64,000 bases of DNA, taken from NCBI GenBank assembly GCA_947174995.1, contig CAMWLC010000003.1, positions 1-64,000 on the forward strand, written 5' to 3'. Positions 773-34,148 of the stretch are shown here, piece by piece. Both the position numbers and the translations under genes were made by a program. Within the stretch, counting starts at the first letter, position 1. Each line of letters opens with the position of its first letter. The stretch is from an uncultured Porphyromonadaceae bacterium. GTDB lineage: Bacteria; Bacteroidota; Bacteroidia; Bacteroidales; Muribaculaceae. The notes under the pieces are model-generated. The model saw only the letters and a list, made by a program, of their open reading frames with translations, was not told the origin of the DNA and made no database searches.

Positions 773-2299
773 TTAGTTGGCCTTGATTTCGCCGACGTAT
801 TCGGTCCACTTCTTATCCTTGTAGAGCCAGCTCTGACCGGTCATTGCTCCTGCGTCTATGCCCGGACAGTCAACCATGAGGACGTAGACCTTGCCGTCGG
901 TGGGATTCTTGGGAGCGGTGGAGTCTCCCCAAAGCTCGAAGGTGGTCTGACCCTCGACTGAGCAGTTGCCCTCGCCGTCGATCCAGATATGGGCGTTCCC
1001 TTTAAGTCCGAGAGCGTCCCACACAACCGTGCTTTCCCTCTTGGCCTCTTCCCCCTCGATGTCCTCGCTGCTCTTGTGCTCGGCTGAGTAGACGTAATGC
1101 ACAAGGCCGTTGTGGTAGTTGATTACTGCGGCTGAGTTGCTCCAGCCCAGACGGTCAAGGCAGGGTTCAAGCTTGAACTCAAGGTCGCCGAAGATGGTGT
1201 GAATTGCGGTGACCTCCCAACCGATCTTGTTGGTCTTGACGTTGATCTGCACCTCCGGATGCTTGGAGAAGTCGATTGTCTGGATGTTCTCGACGAAGTT
1301 CTTGCCGCAAAGGATGATTACCGACTTGGGTACGTCGTCGCCGGTGAAAATCATCTTGGCAAGTGCGATGAACTCTTCATAAGTCCACTTCCCGGCTTTG
1401 TCGAGGTGGCGGCGTATCTGCCAGCGAACGCCTTCGGTGGTGTAGATGAACTGGTCGCCCAGCTTAGTGCTGACGGTGAATTTCGACGAGCGGCTTGCCC
1501 ACAGCGTGCGGTTGCCGTCCGTCTTGAACTTCTTGATCTGCATCTGCGCGATGAGTGCCTTACCGAAGGGGATGTGCTTGCGCTGAGCCTCGAAGTAGTC
1601 GCTCACCACACTGGAGAAGCCTCTCTTCTGGCAGTATATCATGCTCGGCGAGGGGACGATGATGTTGGGTGCTACGTCCTTCTGCGTCTCGTAGAGGGCG
1701 TTGGCGAGTCCTACGAGGGTTGTGCCGGCCGGTATTTCAGGCACGGTGCCGATTGCGTCGGTCTCGTTGGCCTTCTTGCCGTTCACGGCCATTACGATAG
1801 GCTCTTTGTCTACATCCGTGAAGCCGGTGACGAAAAGCATAAGCTCCTGTCCGGGTGTCACGTTCTTGCCCTTCTTGTCGTAACCGTCCACTCCCTTCAC
1901 GAGAATGGTTGTGTAGGGCTGGAAAAGGCCTCGGTCGGCCTTGTTGAGTTTGAGCACTACGTTCTCGTCTGTACCGTCGCCAACCTTAGCGATGGTTACA
2001 GCCTGACAGCGTGGCTCGTCGAGTGCGAAATGCTCCACTTCGGGAGAGGTCACCGAGACGCGCTTTGCCTGAAGCATAAGCTGCATCAGCGGCGTGTCGT
2101 CGCTGTTGAATTCATAGATGTTGCGGTCTATGTCACTCTCGATGAAGTGACCGGGGCCGATGTCTCCTGTGGCGTTGGCTGCCGTGCTGACGGTTGCGGC
2201 CTGACCCTGAACCTGTGTGTTCAGTCCCCCTGTGCCGGGAGCGGTCGTGACCGTGCCGGTTCCGGTTTCTACCGGGCTGTTGGTTAAATCGTCTGCCAT
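773..2299 (-). CDS. Putative major capsid protein
   Basis: 508-aa ORF following a scaffold-like ORF, in the same module as TerL and portal; Ala/Gly/Thr-rich N-arm. Assigned mainly by gene order and size. Confidence 0.65.
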   Translation of the reverse strand: MADDLTNSPVETGTGTVTTAPGTGGLNTQVQGQAATVSTAANATGDIGPGHFIESDIDRNIYEFNSDDTPLMQLMLQAKRVSVTSPEVEHFALDEPRCQAVTIAKVGDGTDENVVLKLNKADRGLFQPYTTILVKGVDGYDKKGKNVTPGQELMLFVTGFTDVDKEPIVMAVNGKKANETDAIGTVPEIPAGTTLVGLANALYETQKDVAPNIIVPSPSMIYCQKRGFSSVVSDYFEAQRKHIPFGKALIAQMQIKKFKTDGNRTLWASRSSKFTVSTKLGDQFIYTTEGVRWQIRRHLDKAGKWTYEEFIALAKMIFTGDDVPKSVIILCGKNFVENIQTIDFSKHPEVQINVKTNKIGWEVTAIHTIFGDLEFKLEPCLDRLGWSNSAAVINYHNGLVHYVYSAEHKSSEDIEGEEAKRESTVVWDALGLKGNAHIWIDGEGNCSVEGQTTFELWGDSTAPKNPTDGKVYVLMVDCPGIDAGAMTGQSWLYKDKKWTEYVGEIKAN

Positions 2300-2325: not shown

Positions 2326-2490
2326 CTATTTTCGGTCGGTCTCGATCAGGCCTCCCGGTCTTATTCCTCCGGTAGTGGATGCAATCGCGCTTATGGTGGC
2401 CGCATATCCCGGCATCTGGCATTTCAGCCCTCCAGTCCCTGTCTGAGCCTCCTGCTGTGGAGTTTTTACTATCTTTACTACCTGTGGCAT
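2326..2490 (-). CDS. 54-aa ORF resembling a free-standing capsid N-arm (not in ORF track)
   Basis: Translates to MPQVVKIVKTPQQEAQTGTGGLKCQMPGYAATISAIASTTGGIRPGGLIETDRK*. Start codon is 5 nt after the scaffold stop with AAGGA upstream. Residues 18-52 align ungapped with capsid residues 22-56 (20/35 identical). Confidence 0.75.
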   Translation of the reverse strand: MPQVVKIVKTPQQEAQTGTGGLKCQMPGYAATISAIASTTGGIRPGGLIETDRK

Positions 2491-2495
2491 AGTCC

Positions 2496-3239
2496 TTAGT
2501 CAGCTTCGCGCGCAAGGTCGAAGACGCTCTGCTTCTTGTTGGCCTTCTGGCTCGGTGTGCCGTTGCGTCCGTTGAGGTTGGTGATTCCGTCTCCCTTCTT
2601 GGAGTTGCGCATCTTCTCCACAATCTTGGCGTTGCGTCCGGCCACTTCTCCCTCTTCCTGAGCGTTGGCTACGTCCGCGTCATGGTTCAGGGCGTTCGCT
2701 ATCAGGGTTATGGTCTCAGGCGAGAGTATGCCCATGATTCCCTCGCGGATTATCTGCACCCATGCCGCGCCGATAGCGTCTATCTGCTCGTCGCTGAGGC
2801 CGTTCTGCTGCTGATATTCCGGAAGGGTCTTGTTCAGGGTGGTGTCCATGTTGCGCTCATACTCTTCGTCGAGCTGCTTGCTCTTGGCGAGTCGGTCAAG
2901 ATATTCCTTGTTGGCTGCCTCGATTTTATCCTGCATGGCCGGATCGTCCATTACGTCCTTGACCTGTATTCCTAAGCGTCTGACGAGACTCGTCACAGGG
3001 TCTTTCCCCTCGCGCATGTCGTTGAGGATAAAGGCGGCCTGTGGGTTCTCCCTGAACATATTGCTCAGTGATTTCTCCCTCTCCTTCATCGCGCCGTTCT
3101 CTGCCTCAAAAGCGTCGTAATCGTCTGAAATCTGTCCGAAGATTTCTTCGTCGTCCTCGAATTTCTTTTCAGGATATTTGGTGCGCAGTCGTTCCAGATG
3201 TTGGTCGCGTCTGCTTCTAACCGGGTTATTCTCAGCCAT
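2496..3239 (-). CDS. Putative scaffold/head-maturation-like protein
   Basis: Charged, helix-rich protein directly upstream of the capsid gene. ATG at 3239 preferred over the TTG start used in the ORF track. Confidence 0.5.
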   Translation of the reverse strand: MAENNPVRSRRDQHLERLRTKYPEKKFEDDEEIFGQISDDYDAFEAENGAMKEREKSLSNMFRENPQAAFILNDMREGKDPVTSLVRRLGIQVKDVMDDPAMQDKIEAANKEYLDRLAKSKQLDEEYERNMDTTLNKTLPEYQQQNGLSDEQIDAIGAAWVQIIREGIMGILSPETITLIANALNHDADVANAQEEGEVAGRNAKIVEKMRNSKKGDGITNLNGRNGTPSQKANKKQSVFDLAREAD

Positions 3240-3354: not shown

Positions 3355-3828
3355 ATGAAGTATTTCGGTTCCACAGTCACTTTCACGCGCGAACGCAATG
3401 CGGACATCATGCGTGTGTTTCGGCAAAAGCTTGTCGAGGCAGACTTCATACGCATGGACGATATTTGCCGTCAGGTGGCAGAGTCTCCCTCTTCCCGGTT
3501 CTGGGTGAGTGCGGAGCGTGCCGCTGTTGTCATTTCCTCGATGGAGGCCGGACGCGCCGTCCCCTGTCTGACGGAAATGAAGCGTGAGATGTTCGACGAG
3601 ATTTTCCGTAGGTATAAGGAGATGCGGATTCTTCGTCCGGAAGAGTCCCTGTTGGATTTGGTTGCGGTCATTGTCAATCAGCCCGCGCCTAAATTCTATT
3701 TCACTCCCCGGACGGTCAAGGAGTTTGTGCGCCGCATTCGCAGTGGCTGGTATGACCGGAAGCAGTGTAGCTTAGAGGAAGATGGATTTAGCGAAGGAAA
3801 TAAAGGAGAGGTTCGACCTGATTATTGA
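3355..3828 (+). CDS. Hypothetical phage protein upstream of TerL
   Basis: 157-aa ORF, overlaps the terL start by 47 nt; divergent from capsid operon. Confidence 0.55.
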   Translation: MKYFGSTVTFTRERNADIMRVFRQKLVEADFIRMDDICRQVAESPSSRFWVSAERAAVVISSMEAGRAVPCLTEMKREMFDEIFRRYKEMRILRPEESLLDLVAVIVNQPAPKFYFTPRTVKEFVRRIRSGWYDRKQCSLEEDGFSEGNKGEVRPDY

Positions 3829-5923
3829 CCTCCTGAAGGAGAATGACAGGCGCAACGAGATCATCTACGCGAAGTTCGACCCGATTACCGGGGAAGGCTC
3901 CGTAGGTGAGCGTGTCCGTGTCGAGATTCCTGATTTCGTTATTCCCGTTCAGTGGCTTCCTGAAAGCATGATGAAGGTTGAGTTTGTCCGCAGGTTGGTC
4001 GAGGCCGGTTCCATCAAGCTGTTTCTTTCCGGCTTCCTCGGTGTGGAGCCTAACCCCTCCGACGCTTCAAAGGTGGCCACTCAGTTGATGCGTCTCCGCT
4101 ATCGGCATGACTTCCCTTTCTGGTGCGCCACTCTTGTGAAAGTGAAGAAAAAGGGCGGTGGTGATGATGTCCTGTTCCGGCTCTGGTATCCTCAGCGTCG
4201 CCTCGTAGAGATGTTTGAAAAAAGCCGGTTGGCCGGTGAGCCGATACGCATTGTCATGCTGAAGGCTCGCCAGTGGGGAGGCTCCACCACTACGCAGCTC
4301 TATATGGCATGGCTCCAGTTCCTCCATAAGAAAGGCCTCAACTCCCTCATCATCGCCCATCAGGGTTCTGCCTCCGACGAGATCAAGGATATGTTCGACC
4401 GTATGATTGCCGATTATCCTGTTGAGATGCTGCATCCCCTCGGCGATTCATGGTCTGACACTGAGGTTAAGATGGTGGGTGTTGGTAAGTCGGGCTCTAT
4501 TCACCGTGTGCCTCAACGCAACTGCAAGATAAAGATAGGTACTGCCGAGCGTCCGGATTCTTGCCGTGGTGGTGATTACAACCTTGTGCATCTTTCAGAG
4601 GTCGGACTGTGGAAGAAAACCGAAAACAAGACCCCGGAGGATATTGTGCGCTCCGCTTGCTCCGGTATTCTCTTCCGGCCATACACCATGATTGTCTATG
4701 AGTCTACGGCCAACGGAACCGGCAATTTCTTCCACTCCGAATATCATGCGGCCGCATACCCTGACCCTGACGCTAAGGTTCACTCCCAGTTCTCGCCCCT
4801 CTTTATTCCCTGGTATGAGATTGAGCAGTATTCCCTTCTCTTCAAGTCTTTCAGCGATAAGGTGATATTCGCCTTTCAGCTCTGGAGCAACCGGGAGTCT
4901 CGCACGGCCATGTCCGCGCGTGAGGAGTCTGGCCGCTATCTGTGGTGGCTTTGGGAGAAGGGTGCCACGCTGGAGGCTATCAACTGGTATGTCCATGAGC
5001 GTGCCGGAAAGAACTCCCATGACGTCATGGCCTCCGAATATCCCTCTGACGATGTGGAGGCGTTCGTGCATTCAGGCTCTATGGTGTTCGACAAATATCT
5101 GGTGAAGGAGTTTGAGGGTGCATGTTCCATTCCACGGTTCATAGGGGAGATCAACGGTGATGCCAACGAAGGCCGTCAGTGCATGAAGAATATCCGCTTC
5201 CGTGAGGACGGTCAGGCTAATTTCTGGATCTGGGCTATGCCGGAGATTGACCCGGAGGTAAAGGTTACAAACCGCTACCTCGTCGTTGTCGATATTGGAG
5301 GCCGGTCCAACAAGGCCGACTGGTCCGTGATAGCGGTGTTCGACCGTATCAACATGATAGACGGAGGCCGTCAGGCGATTGTTGCCCAGTGGAGAGGTCA
5401 CTGCGACATCGACCGCCTCGCTTGGCGTGCCGCTCAGATTGCCGCATGGTACGACAATGCCCTTCTCGTCATAGAGTCAAACACATTGGAGACACACGAC
5501 CGGGAGCGGCAGATCGAAGGCGGCGACCAGTCGCAGTATATCCTCAATCAGATTTCCGACGTATATCCCAACCTCTACGCTCGCCGTCAGTCCGAGGACG
5601 AGATTCGTCAGGGTATTCCCCGGAAATATGGCTTTCACACCAATGCCGCCACAAAGCCTATGATAATAACCACGCTCATAAAGTGCGTCCGCGATCATCT
5701 TTACACTGAGCGAGACCGTGAGGTTCTCAACGAGTTCCTGACCTATGAGCGGAAGCAGAACGGCGCATACGGCGCAATCGTCGGCAAGCATGACGACCTT
5801 CTTATGACCCGCGCCATCGGCCTTCACATTTCCCTTTATGAAATGGATATGCCTCAGATTATCAAAGTGTCTGAAATGAGGCATAAAAAAAGAAGAGGCC
5901 ACGTTTCCGAAGCCTCTATCTGA
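3782..5923 (+). CDS. Phage terminase large subunit
   Basis: 713-aa ORF with KARQWGGSTTTQ ATPase motif and VVVDIGGRSNKADWSVIAVFDR nuclease-type motif. Confidence 0.85.
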   Translation: MDLAKEIKERFDLIIDLLKENDRRNEIIYAKFDPITGEGSVGERVRVEIPDFVIPVQWLPESMMKVEFVRRLVEAGSIKLFLSGFLGVEPNPSDASKVATQLMRLRYRHDFPFWCATLVKVKKKGGGDDVLFRLWYPQRRLVEMFEKSRLAGEPIRIVMLKARQWGGSTTTQLYMAWLQFLHKKGLNSLIIAHQGSASDEIKDMFDRMIADYPVEMLHPLGDSWSDTEVKMVGVGKSGSIHRVPQRNCKIKIGTAERPDSCRGGDYNLVHLSEVGLWKKTENKTPEDIVRSACSGILFRPYTMIVYESTANGTGNFFHSEYHAAAYPDPDAKVHSQFSPLFIPWYEIEQYSLLFKSFSDKVIFAFQLWSNRESRTAMSAREESGRYLWWLWEKGATLEAINWYVHERAGKNSHDVMASEYPSDDVEAFVHSGSMVFDKYLVKEFEGACSIPRFIGEINGDANEGRQCMKNIRFREDGQANFWIWAMPEIDPEVKVTNRYLVVVDIGGRSNKADWSVIAVFDRINMIDGGRQAIVAQWRGHCDIDRLAWRAAQIAAWYDNALLVIESNTLETHDRERQIEGGDQSQYILNQISDVYPNLYARRQSEDEIRQGIPRKYGFHTNAATKPMIITTLIKCVRDHLYTERDREVLNEFLTYERKQNGAYGAIVGKHDDLLMTRAIGLHISLYEMDMPQIIKVSEMRHKKRRGHVSEASI
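5884..5917 (-). terminator. Terminator for portal transcript inside the 3' end of terL
   Basis: On minus strand AGAGGC-12nt-GCCTCT followed by TCTTTTTTT. Confidence 0.6.
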
Positions 5924-5936
5924 TTGTTGCCTGTTG

Positions 5937-7883
5937 TCATGCGGCGTTGAACATCGCCTGTGCCTGTCTCACTGCGTTCATGTCCGCTCCGGCCTGCGCC
6001 TGTCTCAGAAGTTCCGGAGATATATTGTCCGGTGTCTCTCCGCGCTCCAGTTGCTCCTGCTGGCTCTTCACGCTCTGCAGAAGGCCGTCCGCGAATGGGA
6101 AGTCGCCGTGTTCCAGAAGCTGTTGCAGCGTGATCTGTCCCATCTCGAATATCTTCATCAGGAAATCGTTCTGCATGGCCCTGTATGTAGGTGTCGCCGT
6201 GCTTTCAGTTATGCTCAGGTCAAATTCTATGTCGCTCAGCTTCGACGGGTCGTATATGGCCTCCTTCCCGGCTATGTTGCATGTCCTCTTGTCGTCATAA
6301 TACTGTTGGATATTCTTCACGTCCTTGTAGGCTCCCTCCTTCACGAAGTCCGAGAAGGTCTCTAAGAGGTCAAGCAGCGACGTCGTCGCGTTCTGCGTCT
6401 GCTGGCTGTAGAGGCTCGCGCTCATCCCCGAGAATCCCGGCTTCCCCTGGATCGCTCCGTTCACTCCTGATATGTCCTCAAAGAATTTAAGCTGCATGTT
6501 CAGAAGCTCCGATATTCCTATCTGGGTGCAGTTGTTGGCTATCTGCTTCGGTATCGTCGCGCTCTTGTTGGGCTTGAACACTATGATGCCGTCGGCTCTT
6601 GCCCATTCGTCTGCTATGTCGTCCATGCTCATGTGGTCCGGAAGTGCGTCCTCCGGGAAGAGAAGCACACCCTTCGCGCTCGTCTTCATGATGAAGTCGT
6701 AGAGCATTATCAGGCGGTTCACGTAGCGCTGCTGGTCTATCACGTCGGCGACGAACGAGTGTATCTCCCCGTCGATAAAGGGATAGGCCGCGAAGACATA
6801 AGGATGTTCCTTATGCTCGTATGGCGTCTCCCCCTCGTCGAGCACATCCCCGAAAGGAGTCAGGAAATAGTAATACCAGTATGAATCTATAAACCATTCA
6901 GCCTTGATCAGCGGTATCTCTTCCTCCGGTATTCCTAAAGCCGCTCCCTCTCTCCGGCGTTCCTCGTTCACTTTCACTACCTCTTCCTGATAGTCCTCCA
7001 GCTCTATCTTGAAAATATCGCCGCTGTTCGGGTCATGGCACCGGTAGCGTGCCTTGCTCTCCTTCCTCCATACCTCTATCACCCGGCAGAGGCTCGTATC
7101 TTCAGGCACGAGGAAGTCATACCGGTTGTTGAGCGGAAAGCCGAATCGCTGATAGGCTATCCCCACGACGTTGCGGTTCGATGCGTGGTTGTATATCTCC
7201 CTCAGTCGCCGCTCCTCCTCCGGGCTGTGGGCATACTTGCTTATCAGCTCACCATAGGTTATGTCGTGGATCTCGCCCAGGCAGCTCACGTCCCATCCCC
7301 GGAAATCCCTCATGTTCGGATCAATGAAGAAATTGTTGGGCTGCACATAGTCCGTCCAGCAGTCGAGGGTGTTGTTGCGCCATCCGTGCCATTTCCGGTG
7401 TACGACAAAGCCGGAGATAAGAAATTCCTCCATGCTCCGTGCGTTCACCTTCCTCATCCTGTTGCGTGCCATGTTGTATTGGAGCACCGTGCTCATCGTC
7501 TCGCCGAATTTCTGCTCGTCCCGGTCTCTGGCCGTGCAGGTCGGCTCCTTGTCCTGACTCTCATACACGCCTAAGACGCTCCTGATCATTCTCCGGATAA
7601 GGTTGTTCTTCAGCGGCAGGTTCCCCTGCTTCTTGATAAGCTCTGACTCCTTCATGCGTCGCCCGTCCACGCACACCATATCGTCCCACTGCTTGCCGTA
7701 GGTGTAGTTCTTGTTTCTCTCGCGGTCGCGCCTGAATTTGTCCATCAGCATCCAGTAGTGCTGTGCCTCCATCAGTACGTCAAATGCCTTCTTCTCTCCC
7801 CGGCGTGCCTTCTGCTCTGCCACGGAGTCATACTTGGCCTTCGGCAATACCTTGCTAAGCCTATGAAGTTTCTTCTTTGCCAT
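5937..7883 (-). CDS. Phage portal protein
   Basis: 648-aa ORF convergent with TerL; KNYTYGKQW N-terminus, helix-rich wing/stem-like composition and Gln-rich C-terminus typical of large phage portals. Confidence 0.75.
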   Translation of the reverse strand: MAKKKLHRLSKVLPKAKYDSVAEQKARRGEKKAFDVLMEAQHYWMLMDKFRRDRERNKNYTYGKQWDDMVCVDGRRMKESELIKKQGNLPLKNNLIRRMIRSVLGVYESQDKEPTCTARDRDEQKFGETMSTVLQYNMARNRMRKVNARSMEEFLISGFVVHRKWHGWRNNTLDCWTDYVQPNNFFIDPNMRDFRGWDVSCLGEIHDITYGELISKYAHSPEEERRLREIYNHASNRNVVGIAYQRFGFPLNNRYDFLVPEDTSLCRVIEVWRKESKARYRCHDPNSGDIFKIELEDYQEEVVKVNEERRREGAALGIPEEEIPLIKAEWFIDSYWYYYFLTPFGDVLDEGETPYEHKEHPYVFAAYPFIDGEIHSFVADVIDQQRYVNRLIMLYDFIMKTSAKGVLLFPEDALPDHMSMDDIADEWARADGIIVFKPNKSATIPKQIANNCTQIGISELLNMQLKFFEDISGVNGAIQGKPGFSGMSASLYSQQTQNATTSLLDLLETFSDFVKEGAYKDVKNIQQYYDDKRTCNIAGKEAIYDPSKLSDIEFDLSITESTATPTYRAMQNDFLMKIFEMGQITLQQLLEHGDFPFADGLLQSVKSQQEQLERGETPDNISPELLRQAQAGADMNAVRQAQAMFNAA

Positions 7884-28934: not shown

Positions 28935-29915
28935 TTATTTTCTTCTGCTGGGTGGTACATTATCATCGTTGCCTCGTCTGCTTGGTGGGGTATTGTCTTT
29001 TGGCTTAGGTCTTGCCGGTTGCCCTCCCTTCTTGGTCGTTGTGGCCGTCTGGGAAGAGTGTCCGTTGGTTTCATCGTCGCGGTCGGTTGTTGTCGATGAT
29101 GTTATATCCTCTTCTTGCCATGTGCCGTGCTGCTTGGCAAAGCGGTCAGCGGCCTCCTTAGTCCGGAAGGAATGAGGGTTGCCGTTTTCGTCCCATGCCG
29201 TATATTCCTTAGCCTCGCTTCGATCATGCGCTCGTGCTGAGGCCATTGAGTTTGCTGCGGATGCACGGTAAGAACCTGCCCTTGCCGATTCCGTGGCATT
29301 CTTTAATTGTAGCTCCTGCGGCTTATTCTCAGCCTCGTATTGTGCCGCTATTGCATCCTGTTCCGCTTTATCGGCCTTTCCTTTCTGTTCTCGCTGTTTG
29401 TCGGGTTGTAAGAGTGCTTGCCAACTGTGTGCCTCTGCATCACGCTCGGCCTTCTCCCTTGCAAGCTTCTGCGCCTCATGCTGCGCCCTCATGTCGCGGA
29501 TCGTCTTGGCCTTTGCGTTCTGTGCGTCACCCAGACGTAGCATATAATTGTTGTAGCGGTCAGCGTCGGCCTGTCTCTCGGCCTTTAGAGCCTCGATGCG
29601 CTCGTTGACCTTCCCCAGATGGGAGGATTGGGGATTGTAGGCATTGGGGGCGTATTGGGTCGTAAAGAAGAGATTGGAGAGGGCTGACAGGCCATCGACG
29701 GTTGCGGCGATTACCTTCTTGGACTTCTCCATTCTCTCACGCTTTTTCTTCTGCTCCGGGGTCTCCTGATTCACGGCGGCGGCTGCCGCTTTGAGGGCGG
29801 CAATCTGCTCGTCGTAGCCCATTACGGCCTCCTGTTCCGACATGGGGGAGGTGGTGGGCTCCTGAGACGTTGCAGGTGCTTCCGGGGTCTGCTCGTTGAT
29901 CTCGTCGTTTGTCAT
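28935..29915 (-). CDS. Putative internal virion/ejection protein, Ala/Lys/Glu-rich coiled coil
   Basis: 326-aa ORF abutting the giant gene; long helical stretch and basic/Pro-rich C-terminus. Confidence 0.5.
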   Translation of the reverse strand: MTNDEINEQTPEAPATSQEPTTSPMSEQEAVMGYDEQIAALKAAAAAVNQETPEQKKKRERMEKSKKVIAATVDGLSALSNLFFTTQYAPNAYNPQSSHLGKVNERIEALKAERQADADRYNNYMLRLGDAQNAKAKTIRDMRAQHEAQKLAREKAERDAEAHSWQALLQPDKQREQKGKADKAEQDAIAAQYEAENKPQELQLKNATESARAGSYRASAANSMASARAHDRSEAKEYTAWDENGNPHSFRTKEAADRFAKQHGTWQEEDITSSTTTDRDDETNGHSSQTATTTKKGGQPARPKPKDNTPPSRRGNDDNVPPSRRK

Positions 29916-29933
29916 AAGCGTTATGGTATGGCG

Positions 29934-30431
29934 TTAGAATGCACCGGCGATATTCCCGGCGGCTGAGGCTACACCCTGTACGGCCTGAGAAATAGCCTGT
30001 GCCTTGTTTACCTCCATGTTGTTCAGTGCCTCGTTGAGTTGTGCGTCGCGCTGCTGATACTGCTGCTCGATTGAGTCCTTCCTACGCTCGGCATTGACGG
30101 CGATGTTAGAGGTTGCCTCGGCCTGTGCCTGTGCGTTGGCCGCTTTGGTGGCGGCGACACTCTCTTCTGTGCCTCCCATCACTGCGGCGGCTCCTGACGC
30201 TGCTCGGTTGCGTGACTTTATGGCCTCCTCGGTCTTGGCGAGTATGGCCTGTGCGTCGGCTCGCTGTGTAGCGTCCTCATTATATCTCTGGTCGTACCAG
30301 TCCTGATTGGTGCGCTTCTGGTCTTGCAGGTTATTCTTGACCTTCTTCATTGCCTTCGACGCGCTTATGCCGCCAAAGATACTACCGGCGATACCTGCTG
30401 CGCCTCCTATTATGCCTCCGATGAGTCCCAT
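29934..30431 (-). CDS. Putative DNA pilot/ejection-like protein with glycine-rich hydrophobic N-terminus
   Basis: MGLIGGIIGGAAGIAGSIFGG N-terminus followed by amphipathic helices. Confidence 0.55.
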   Translation of the reverse strand: MGLIGGIIGGAAGIAGSIFGGISASKAMKKVKNNLQDQKRTNQDWYDQRYNEDATQRADAQAILAKTEEAIKSRNRAASGAAAVMGGTEESVAATKAANAQAQAEATSNIAVNAERRKDSIEQQYQQRDAQLNEALNNMEVNKAQAISQAVQGVASAAGNIAGAF

Positions 30432-31363: not shown

Positions 31364-31437
31364 AAAGCCGACTTCGGGAAATTCCAAAGCCGGTTCAGGA
31401 AATTTTTGTCTGGATCTCGTAAATAATTCAGAAAATT
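31364..31437. repeat. Direct repeats at the 3' end of the integrase gene
   Basis: AAAGCCG-ac-TTCGGGAAATT (31364-31383), AAAGCCG-g-TTCAGGAAATT (31386-31404), TTCAGAAAATT (31427-31437). Confidence 0.7.
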
Positions 31438-32579
31438 TTGGGAATGTTGTCAACGGCCTCCTGCTTCTTTGCATCGACAATCTTTGCATAGATTTGGGTC
31501 GTCTTCAGTTCGCGGTGGCCGAGAAGCTTGCTTACGGTGTAGATGTCGGTCCCTAACGTGAGCATTAAAACCGCAAAGGTATGCCGTCCCACATGAAAGG
31601 TTACGTTCTTGTCTATTTTGGCTCTCAGCGCCCAAATACGGAGGCTGTCGTTGGTCTCACCGGGGTAACGTATATCTCCAAACACTTTGTCAGTAGATTT
31701 GGCCTTTCCTCGCTCTCCAATCAGCTCAGCGGCCTGTGGGGTTATGTCGAGATACTCCTGACCTCCGGTTTTCTTCTGTCGGAATATAAGCCGGGTGCGT
31801 CCGTTAAGCTCTGTTACCTCTCCCCACGTCAGTTTAACGATGTCAGACCGACGTAAACCGGTCAGGCATGAAAAGAGGAACGCTCGCTTGATCTCCGGGA
31901 AATCGCAGTCAGCCGCCGCCATGGCCTTGACCTCTTCGAGCGTGAGATAATCTCTTGTGCCTTCCTGTGACGGAAATCCCAGAATGCCTCTCATTGGATT
32001 CGTGCGAATGATTCCGTCCTCGTATGCCTGACGGAGACAGGCACGGAGTTTATTGAAGTACGACTGTCTTGAATTTTGCGACAACGGTTTTTTATTCTGG
32101 CGTTCTCTTCGGTCACAGCCGAAGGCCTCTGCCTTGTTCTCCAGATAATCCCTGAATCCTTCTACCCACTTTGGCGTGATGTCGGCAAAGGTAAGATTCT
32201 TTCGTGGGTCATACTTCATCAGGTGACGGAGACACGATGCCCAGTTGCTGAAATTGCCCTTGCTCTCTTTCTTCTTGCGTTTTTCAGTCAGGGCATTGTA
32301 GTATTCGTAGAACAACGTCTGTTCCTTGAAATCTCCCTTGAAGCCATGCGCGCCGTTCTGAATGTCAACGATGCGCTGTGCCTTGATAGAGTTGGCGAGT
32401 GCCATTGTCTGCTTGTTACGCTCTTTATCGGCCTTCGTTTTCTCCGGAATGAGGTAGAGCTTCAGAAATTCATACTCCCTGTGTCCGTTGATGTAGATTG
32501 CCAGATAAAGGGAGATGTTTCCGTTGGCGAGTGTCTTGCGCCTGATCCTAACAGGCTCTTTGATTGATGCTGCTGCCAT
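31428..32579 (-). CDS. Tyrosine recombinase/integrase
   Basis: 383 aa with TGLRRSDIVKLTW, HVGRHTFAVLML and LGHRELKTTQIYAKI motifs (R-H-R-Y). Confidence 0.95.
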   Translation of the reverse strand: MAAASIKEPVRIRRKTLANGNISLYLAIYINGHREYEFLKLYLIPEKTKADKERNKQTMALANSIKAQRIVDIQNGAHGFKGDFKEQTLFYEYYNALTEKRKKKESKGNFSNWASCLRHLMKYDPRKNLTFADITPKWVEGFRDYLENKAEAFGCDRRERQNKKPLSQNSRQSYFNKLRACLRQAYEDGIIRTNPMRGILGFPSQEGTRDYLTLEEVKAMAAADCDFPEIKRAFLFSCLTGLRRSDIVKLTWGEVTELNGRTRLIFRQKKTGGQEYLDITPQAAELIGERGKAKSTDKVFGDIRYPGETNDSLRIWALRAKIDKNVTFHVGRHTFAVLMLTLGTDIYTVSKLLGHRELKTTQIYAKIVDAKKQEAVDNIPKIF

Positions 32580-32596
32580 AATCTGTGATGTTTAGA

Positions 32597-32643
32597 TTTG
32601 GTACTTTTGGTACTTGATTTTTACGAGTACCAAAATAGTACCA
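32597..32643. promoter_or_regulatory. Four-copy dyad upstream of integrase
   Basis: TTTGGTACT x2 (32597-32605, 32606-32614) facing AGTACCAAA (32626-32634) and AGTACCA (32637-32643). Confidence 0.7.
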
Positions 32644-32670
32644 CAAATATAACATATCCTTAGCATATAC

Positions 32671-32792
32671 ACAACATACTATTCAAGATTACGCCATATT
32701 TACCGCAGGTGGTAATCCATTGGCTAAATGTGCGTTTATGTGTCGTAGATATGCCATGAGTATGTTGTAATAAAAAATCTTGAAAATATGGC
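32671..32792. other. Putative prophage attachment (attR-side) region at mnmE 3' end
   Basis: Lies between integrase and mnmE stop; contains three inverted word pairs. No attL in window, so core not defined. Confidence 0.45.
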
Positions 32793-34148
32793 TTACTTTC
32801 CGATGCAGAAATGGGAGAAGATGTTTTGGAGGAGGTCGTCGGGGGTGATGGCGCCGGTGAGGAGGCCGAGGTGGTGGATTGCCCGGCGGATGTGCTGCGA
32901 GACGAGGTCGGCGCTTTCCTGCGCTTTCAGGGCGCCGGAGGCGTCCGTCAATGCGGCGGATACCTGCCTGAGGGCGGCGTGGTGACGGGCGTTGGTGATT
33001 ATGAGGGTCTGCGCCGGGTCATGGTCACGCAGGACGCTCTCCTTGAGGCGCCGCTTCAGTTGCTGCAGGGTGGCGGGGTCTTTGGATGAGAGGGCGAGCC
33101 ATCCTTCCGGTGTCTCGCGGCCCGGGTGCAGGTCGGATTTGGTGAGTATCCGTATGAGGGTCTGATCTCCGTTGATTTCGGGGATGTCTTCGGGTTGCGT
33201 GTCCGTGGCCGGGTCGCGGAGCCAGAGGATTATGCGGGCTTTGACAAGGGCCGCACGGGCGCGGTCGATGCCTATGCTTTCGATGGGGTCGTCGGTGTTG
33301 CCGCGCAGTCCGGCGGTGTCGATGAAGCGGTAGAGGATACCGTCGATTTCGGCGGTGTCTTCTATGATGTCGCGGGTGGTGCCGGGGATGTCGCTGACTA
33401 TTGCTTTGTCGTCGCCGACGAGGTAGTTCAGGAGGGTGGATTTGCCGGCGTTGGGGTGTCCGGCTATGACGACGGGGACACCCTCCTTGAGGACGCGTCC
33501 CGTAGCGTATGAGCCGGCCAGGGCGTCTATTTCGCGGATGGTGTCGTCACAGAGTCGGATGAGGGCTCCCCGGTCGGCAAACTCTACTTCTTCTTCGGAG
33601 AAATCGAGTTCGAGCTCGAGCATGGAGGCGAGGTGGATGAGGTCGTCGCGCAGGAGGGTGAAGCGGCGGGCGAAGTCGCCGCGTGTCTGTGAGATGGCGA
33701 GGGTGTGGGCGGCGCGTGATGAGGAGGCGATGAGGTCGGCTATTCCTTCGGCGCGGGTGAGGTCCATGCGTCCGTTGAGGAAGGAGCGCTGGGTAAACTC
33801 CCCGGGGAGGGCCACTCTTGCTCCGGCCTCCGTGAGGGCCTGCATTACGGCTGAGGCTATCCAGGGGGAGCCGTGGATGGTAAACTCCACGGAGTCCTGC
33901 CCGGTGAAGGAGCGGGGGGCACGATATGCGGTGGCCACGGCCTCGTCAAGGTCGCGGCCCTGTCCGTCATGTATCCAGCCGTGACAGGCGGTGTTGGGGC
34001 GCGTCTGATGAAGCGGCTTGCGTCCGCGCCACACTTTGTCGGCGATGGCGAGAGCGTCGGGGCCGGAGAGGCGTATGATGCTCAGGGCGCCTCCCGCGGG
34101 GGTGGCCGGAGCGGCTATGGTGTCGGAGAGGTCTATCGTCTGTTCCAT
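32793..34148 (-). CDS. mnmE: tRNA modification GTPase MnmE
   Basis: DTIAAPATPAGGALSIIRLSG N-terminus, GHPNAGKSTLLN G1, DIPGTTRD, C-terminal FCIGK. Confidence 0.97.
   Translation of the reverse strand: MEQTIDLSDTIAAPATPAGGALSIIRLSGPDALAIADKVWRGRKPLHQTRPNTACHGWIHDGQGRDLDEAVATAYRAPRSFTGQDSVEFTIHGSPWIASAVMQALTEAGARVALPGEFTQRSFLNGRMDLTRAEGIADLIASSSRAAHTLAISQTRGDFARRFTLLRDDLIHLASMLELELDFSEEEVEFADRGALIRLCDDTIREIDALAGSYATGRVLKEGVPVVIAGHPNAGKSTLLNYLVGDDKAIVSDIPGTTRDIIEDTAEIDGILYRFIDTAGLRGNTDDPIESIGIDRARAALVKARIILWLRDPATDTQPEDIPEINGDQTLIRILTKSDLHPGRETPEGWLALSSKDPATLQQLKRRLKESVLRDHDPAQTLIITNARHHAALRQVSAALTDASGALKAQESADLVSQHIRRAIHHLGLLTGAITPDDLLQNIFSHFCIGK

Follow-up and report, generated by a model that had tools for sequence, protein, structure and literature searches.

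A small gene between the scaffold-like and capsid genes of a prophage in the window (the whole 64,000-nucleotide stretch that we analysed) encodes a diverged, free-standing copy of the N-terminal arm of the major capsid protein, here called the mini-arm, and we put at about one half the probability that this product acts in trans as an arm on the viral shell, either by filling arm sites or by pairing with the acidic capsid arms. Sequence comparison supports the homology of the mini-arm to the whole arm, purifying selection on it, its coupling to the scaffold and capsid genes, an old origin and a special similarity to the arm of its own phage; on such comparative grounds, the open reading frame is a gene and not a remnant.

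The mini-arm ORF (54 aa, MPQVVKIVKTPQQEAQTGTGGLKCQMPGYAATISAIASTTGGIRPGGLIETDRK) occupies positions 2326..2490 of the minus strand, with its ATG at 2490 and its stop ending at 2326. It stands in the order scaffold, mini-arm, capsid, in a prophage whose host belongs to the Muribaculaceae, and the window is the first part of a contig. The Muribaculaceae isolate genome G223 (loci L005/L012) was scored as the same genus as the window's genome; the assembly of Isolate-037 (L005) contains a close homologue. The capsid gene (773..2299, minus strand) encodes a protein of 508 aa that was assigned to the SU10_MCP family and to the HK97-type fold by Pfam, AlphaFold2 and Foldseek: it matches PF17236 (SU10_MCP) at 2.4e-10 with 40.9 bits, above the curated cut-off of 24.1, and a Foldseek search with its model returned the VP1 capsid 9in6 as best hit, then phicrAss001 (7qof) and SU10 (7z48), all with a probability of 1.00 and TM-scores of only 0.3-0.55. 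The capsid proteins of SU10, VP1 and phicrAss001 share the HK97-type fold with the window's parent capsid, but their solved chains contain no sequence relative of the mini-arm (PDB search). One further gene on the minus strand follows the capsid gene downstream. On the other side of the mini-arm, the scaffold-like protein (2496..3239, minus strand, 247 aa in its ATG reading) matches phrog_22323 at 4.8e-78, a family of unknown function, and its position and composition suggest a scaffold role. Beyond it lie a terminase-type gene (3782-5923, plus strand) and a P22-type portal gene (5937-7883, minus strand).

The sequence-only reading had proposed that the ORF duplicates the capsid N-terminal arm, and the identities and the alignments agree that this duplication is real. 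Residues 18-52 of the mini-arm (2335..2439, minus strand) align without gaps to capsid residues 22-56 (2132..2236, minus strand); on recheck the 20 identities out of 35 proved exact, as did the ORF length, both segments and their coordinates. While the best ungapped 35-residue match between the mini-arm and the capsid has these 20 identities, 3000 shuffled peptides reached at most 13 (mean 8.6), and BLASTP of the mini-arm against the capsid gave E = 9e-8, so a chance match is excluded. The homology goes beyond these 35 residues: in the family alignment it extends from the N-terminus of the mini-arm to its end. In a joint alignment of 58 mini-arms and 91 capsid N-termini, mini-arm residues 1-17 (2440..2490, minus strand) pair more weakly with the capsid N-terminus, the segment xEVVKF of the mini-arm standing opposite xETVNV of the capsid in a short beta-like start. 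The shared core, G-[ST]-A-G-L-x-T-Q-x-P-G-x-x-T-T-V-S-x-x-A-x-A-T-G-G-I-x-P-G-N-[LF]-[IV]-E-x-D, includes the best-conserved portion of mini-arms and capsid arms alike (G-S/T-A-G-L...A-T-G-G-I). The mini-arm ends where the capsid goes on with D-I-D-x-E-L-F. In the AlphaFold2 monomer model of the capsid, built on an alignment of 60 relatives (overall pLDDT 75.8), residues 1-58, which include the parent arm sequence (residues 1-56, 2132..2299, minus strand), have a pLDDT below 50 and the remainder is ordered; since the homology ends at about residue 58, where the order begins, the duplication comprises the disordered arm only. The mini-arm modelled alone is also mostly disordered (pLDDT 56). The two sequences differ in charge, with a mean net charge of +2.6 for mini-arms and -4.1 for capsid arms (residues 1 to about 56), and this difference is distributed across all three segments; mini-arms have a basic N-terminal segment and frequently a C-terminal Lys, and by segment, residues 1-17 of the mini-arm are more basic than their capsid counterpart. 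A pattern scan of the loci for the arm motif elsewhere in structural proteins gave capsid arms and mini-arms only.

To follow the gene beyond the window, capsid relatives were gathered from viral contigs and genomes, and all counts refer to distinct capsid loci. In 58 of 91 loci the capsid gene is directly preceded by an ORF fitting the mini-arm model, and 3 of 10 further capsids of a later set have one too, in keeping with the expectation that the ORF would be intact in relatives; the lengths cluster at 51-60 aa. Model E-values go down to 1e-30 in close relatives, and in the most distant clade (L107-L117, with capsids about 42% identical to that of the window) the first model gave values of 1e-2 to 1e-7, a wider alignment placing these mini-arms easily. 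The window ORF scores 84.0 bits with the mini-arm profile, whose training set included it and excluded two relocated copies considered below, and 51.5 bits with the capsid-arm profile. Among 22 pairs of related phages the median dN/dS is near 0.15, and 21 pairs have values of about 0.03-0.33, which indicates purifying selection at the protein level; the exception, L108/L114, has a dN/dS of about 1 with very few changes. These low values, together with a codon identity that does not exceed the expectation from codon usage, bear out the observation made from the window alone that the peptide was kept while its codons diverged. That same reading had counted absence or frameshifts of the ORF in related prophages against itself: some relatives indeed lack it, by absence with a short spacer, but no frame-broken copy was seen among the loci examined.

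Outside these loci, the family is hard to find. Profile searches of Pfam, PHROG and the PDB with the mini-arm gave neither a matching family nor a solved relative, and placed it in no catalogued family of decoration or accessory head proteins. With the 54-aa peptide alone as query, IMG/VR yielded no relative, so that the capsid and the family alignment were needed as seeds; 32 aligned mini-arms proved too diverse to seed contig scans. Searching 393 Bacteroidales genomes of many families recovered only one weak match besides the genome of the window itself, and therefore the mini-arm gene is not general in Bacteroidales. Cultured phage records held distant capsid relatives only and no convincing mini-arm (best E = 4), and BF1-TP2 and BKO1-TP3 gave no arm match.

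The arrangement of the genes suggests how the mini-arm may be translated. In the window its ATG follows the scaffold stop by 5 nt (GACTAA GGACT ATG), as had been reported from the sequence, and in about 48 of the 60 listed loci the start falls between -4 and +6 nt from this stop, with TAATG and ATGA overlaps being common. This tight spacing supports coupled translation; the other argument that had been advanced for it, an AAGGA ahead of the ATG, carries little weight, because Shine-Dalgarno sequences are naturally absent in Bacteroidetes (PMC6847099). Production of the mini-arm as a fusion with the scaffold or the capsid, by readthrough or frameshifting, was considered and rejected, since the spacings to both genes vary in frame between relatives.

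The age of the duplication was addressed with an arm tree of 134 sequences and 49 columns, built by a quick method and unreliable for single forks. Only 2 label changes part the mini-arms from the capsid arms, against 42 with shuffled labels, and the supported branches do not contradict a single origin. This near-clean split favours one predominant old duplication, and the sequences do not look like the outcome of repeated new duplications. After a single old duplication, a mini-arm is expected to be no closer to the arm of its own phage than to those of others. Among 33 representatives, however, the identity between mini-arm and arm is 0.57 within phages and 0.50 between phages, none of 20,000 permutations reached as high a value, and the excess persists without the distant clade as well as without the window's clade. 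Recent gene conversion was tried as an explanation and rejected for recent events: codons agree at 0.386 of the identical residues, against 0.422 predicted by codon usage, and this agreement, not being raised, makes protein-level selection the better reading of the excess, of which a composition bias within phages could explain a part. One core column illustrates the parallel change: it is Ala nearly everywhere, but the window's clade has Gly there in mini-arm and capsid alike, namely in the mini-arms of L001, L003, L005 and L006 and in their capsids, to which the capsids of L007, L013 and the unrelated L032 are to be added.

The gene has also been lost and moved. A capsid-adjacent mini-arm is missing in 33 of the 91 loci, and on the capsid tree its presence or absence next to the capsid requires 8 changes. 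With several independent losses, the mini-arm is not universally required, and on this phylogenetic evidence its gene is dispensable on the evolutionary scale. In two members of the window's own clade, L007 and L013, the spacer measures 123 and 62 nt, respectively, and contains no mini-arm; the capsids of these two types and of the L001 type, which has the gene, are more than 80% identical. In L007, similar GC-rich repeat-like sequences lie upstream of the scaffold gene (4900-5030) and, at the expected place of the mini-arm, in the scaffold-capsid spacer (5885-5960), and this is possibly linked to its loss. A Gln at capsid alignment column 49 seemed tied to the loss (24 of 33 loci without the gene, 17 of 58 with it) but failed the control for relatedness; after this control, which left only 6 supported independent pairs, none of the capsid residues tested tracked mini-arm presence. 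In two related phages, G302 (L031) and G372 (L028), the capsid spacer is empty and a mini-arm homologue is found 20-30 kb away on the same contig, among ejection-type genes: L142 at G302:C4:55234-55410 (minus strand) and L143 at G372:C73:43689-43841 (plus strand). Both are flanked by a 163-aa gene and a gene of 378 or 362 aa, with a giant late ORF just downstream, and their C-terminal third is diverged or shortened. Because they fit the mini-arm profile much better (53.0 and 42.6 bits) than the capsid-arm profile (35.1 and 26.3 bits), they look like relocated members of the family. In 16 further loci with the 163-aa gene, no second mini-arm was found in the ejection operon. That the mini-arm survives without its usual neighbours speaks against a role that depends on position or RNA alone.

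Kept intact by evolution, the mini-arm probably helps to build the virus head. We infer its production, its presence in the procapsid or the virion and the contacts that it makes there. As a translated late gene product of the head operon, it would dock in trans on the site or sites of the capsid arm itself, on neighbouring subunits or on the inner face of the shell, which the arms line, and once docked it would fill or organise arm sites without a covalently attached arm. Alternatively, its basic residues may pair with the acidic capsid arms. The sequence-only reading had suggested that a free arm could compete with the capsid arm or cap it, or bind the scaffold. The opposite net charges imply that the contacts of the two arms are not wholly identical; they speak against simple mimicry, with competition at each contact of the arm, and fit pairing with the acidic arm. 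We give slightly less than even credence to a fuller statement: to build its heads, a lineage of Bacteroidales phages would use an arm supplied in trans by an ancient paralogue of the arm alone, which has the opposite charge, evolves in concert with the covalent arm and, as the head assembles, docks on the arm lattice or pairs with it.

Other roles have to be weighed against that of an arm acting in trans. The mini-arm may regulate assembly by replacing the capsid arm on the scaffold, for instance at the strongly conserved C-terminal motif S[IVM]FDLAxEA of the scaffold-like proteins (2496-2550, minus strand, in the window, and in relatives), thereby setting the timing or nucleation of assembly before leaving with the scaffold. 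The position directly after the scaffold gene, with stop and start frequently overlapping, the conservation of the scaffold C-terminus in the same loci and the contacts known between coat arm and scaffold in P22 all lend it some support. But the motif is equally conserved in phages with and without a mini-arm, the basic residues (Lys/Arg) that precede it would suit the acidic arm better than the basic mini-arm, and in G302 and G372 the mini-arm no longer adjoins the scaffold, so that we regard such a regulator as rather unlikely. Unlikelier still is a role in the mature head, as an internal or decoration peptide that would reuse the shell-binding core of the arm to bind packaged DNA or cement the shell. 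The positive charge of mini-arms, with their basic N-terminus and C-terminal Lys, and the ejection-type neighbours of the relocated copies would suit this role, as would the precedent of phage PhiM1, whose decoration protein of about 6 kDa, the alpha-claw, touches the N-terminal arm of the capsid (PMC11440229). The alpha-claw, however, consists of two folded helices outside the shell and has no reported kinship to the arm sequence, whereas the mini-arm model is mostly disordered and the PDB profile search gave it no decoration-protein fold or solved relative; moreover, its excess similarity to the arm of its own phage suggests a constraint tied to this arm and not to DNA alone.

A free capsid fragment could also be a dominant inhibitor, by which a lysogen would poison the capsids of related superinfecting phages in the manner of satellite-encoded capsid modifiers, and the absence of the mini-arm from some phages would agree with this. 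We hold such interference to be highly improbable: the place of the gene in the phage's late head operon gives no hint of early expression in the lysogen, and a mini-arm encoded there and most like its own phage's arm would be expected to poison its own assembly. Finally, the ORF is short, unannotated and lost in several lineages, which would fit a chance ORF or a functionless relic of a duplicated capsid gene. The low dN/dS without a frame-broken copy seen, the deep conservation and family-model E-values already given, and the survival of relocation leave this explanation next to no credence.

Studies of the N-terminal arms of capsid proteins usually treat them as covalently joined to the shell protein. 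The delta domain of HK97 and T5 is joined to the capsid protein in this way and has about 100 residues or more; it resembles the capsid arm described here as an N-terminal extension with a role in assembly, but here the capsid keeps its arm, the scaffold-like gene is separate and a second arm is a protein of its own. In T4, the vertex protein gp24 is a paralogue of the major capsid protein gp23 (PMC9958956, PMC3185693) and, like the mini-arm, a head protein that specialised after duplication of the major capsid gene. Whereas gp24 is a whole folded capsid subunit, the mini-arm keeps only the disordered arm of about 55 residues; with its 54 aa and homology to the arm only, it has not retained the folded capsid core that would make it gp24-like. 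The T4 core peptides IPII and IPIII are small head proteins with a capsid-targeting sequence (PMC9958956), comparable to the mini-arm as small head proteins or short N-terminal sequences. They enter the prohead core, and their targeting sequence of about 10 residues is, unlike the mini-arm, not described as a copy of a capsid arm. A limited search of the open-access literature turned up no account of a paralogue that consists of the N-terminal arm alone and is encoded separately. A separate arm amounts to a natural two-component system, in which the function of the arm can be deleted, swapped or titrated with the shell protein untouched, giving access to its part in shell geometry, scaffold contact and the mismatch at the portal vertex. 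Mini-arms, which many viruses of gut bacteria carry just before the gene of their main shell protein, form a widespread family of small proteins missed by standard annotation and by the profile libraries searched.

Several further features were observed. The capsid N-termini of L080, L083, L088 and L094, which belong to a clade without mini-arm, repeat the arm motif in part, with GVDAQVQGDL preceding GSAGLDTQVPGQ. In the window, a single ORF of 6993 aa (7951-28932, minus strand), apparently a giant polyvalent-type protein, has the portal on one side and, on the other, two genes (326 and 165 aa; 28935-30431, minus strand) that resemble internal or ejection proteins; the counterparts of the giant ORF measure 7285 aa in G302 and 6001 aa in G372, and the 165-aa gene is kept in 17 of the 29 genomes searched. 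Finally, a tyrosine-recombinase-like gene adjoins an mnmE-like host gene at 31428-34148 (minus strand), which likely marks the edge of the prophage.
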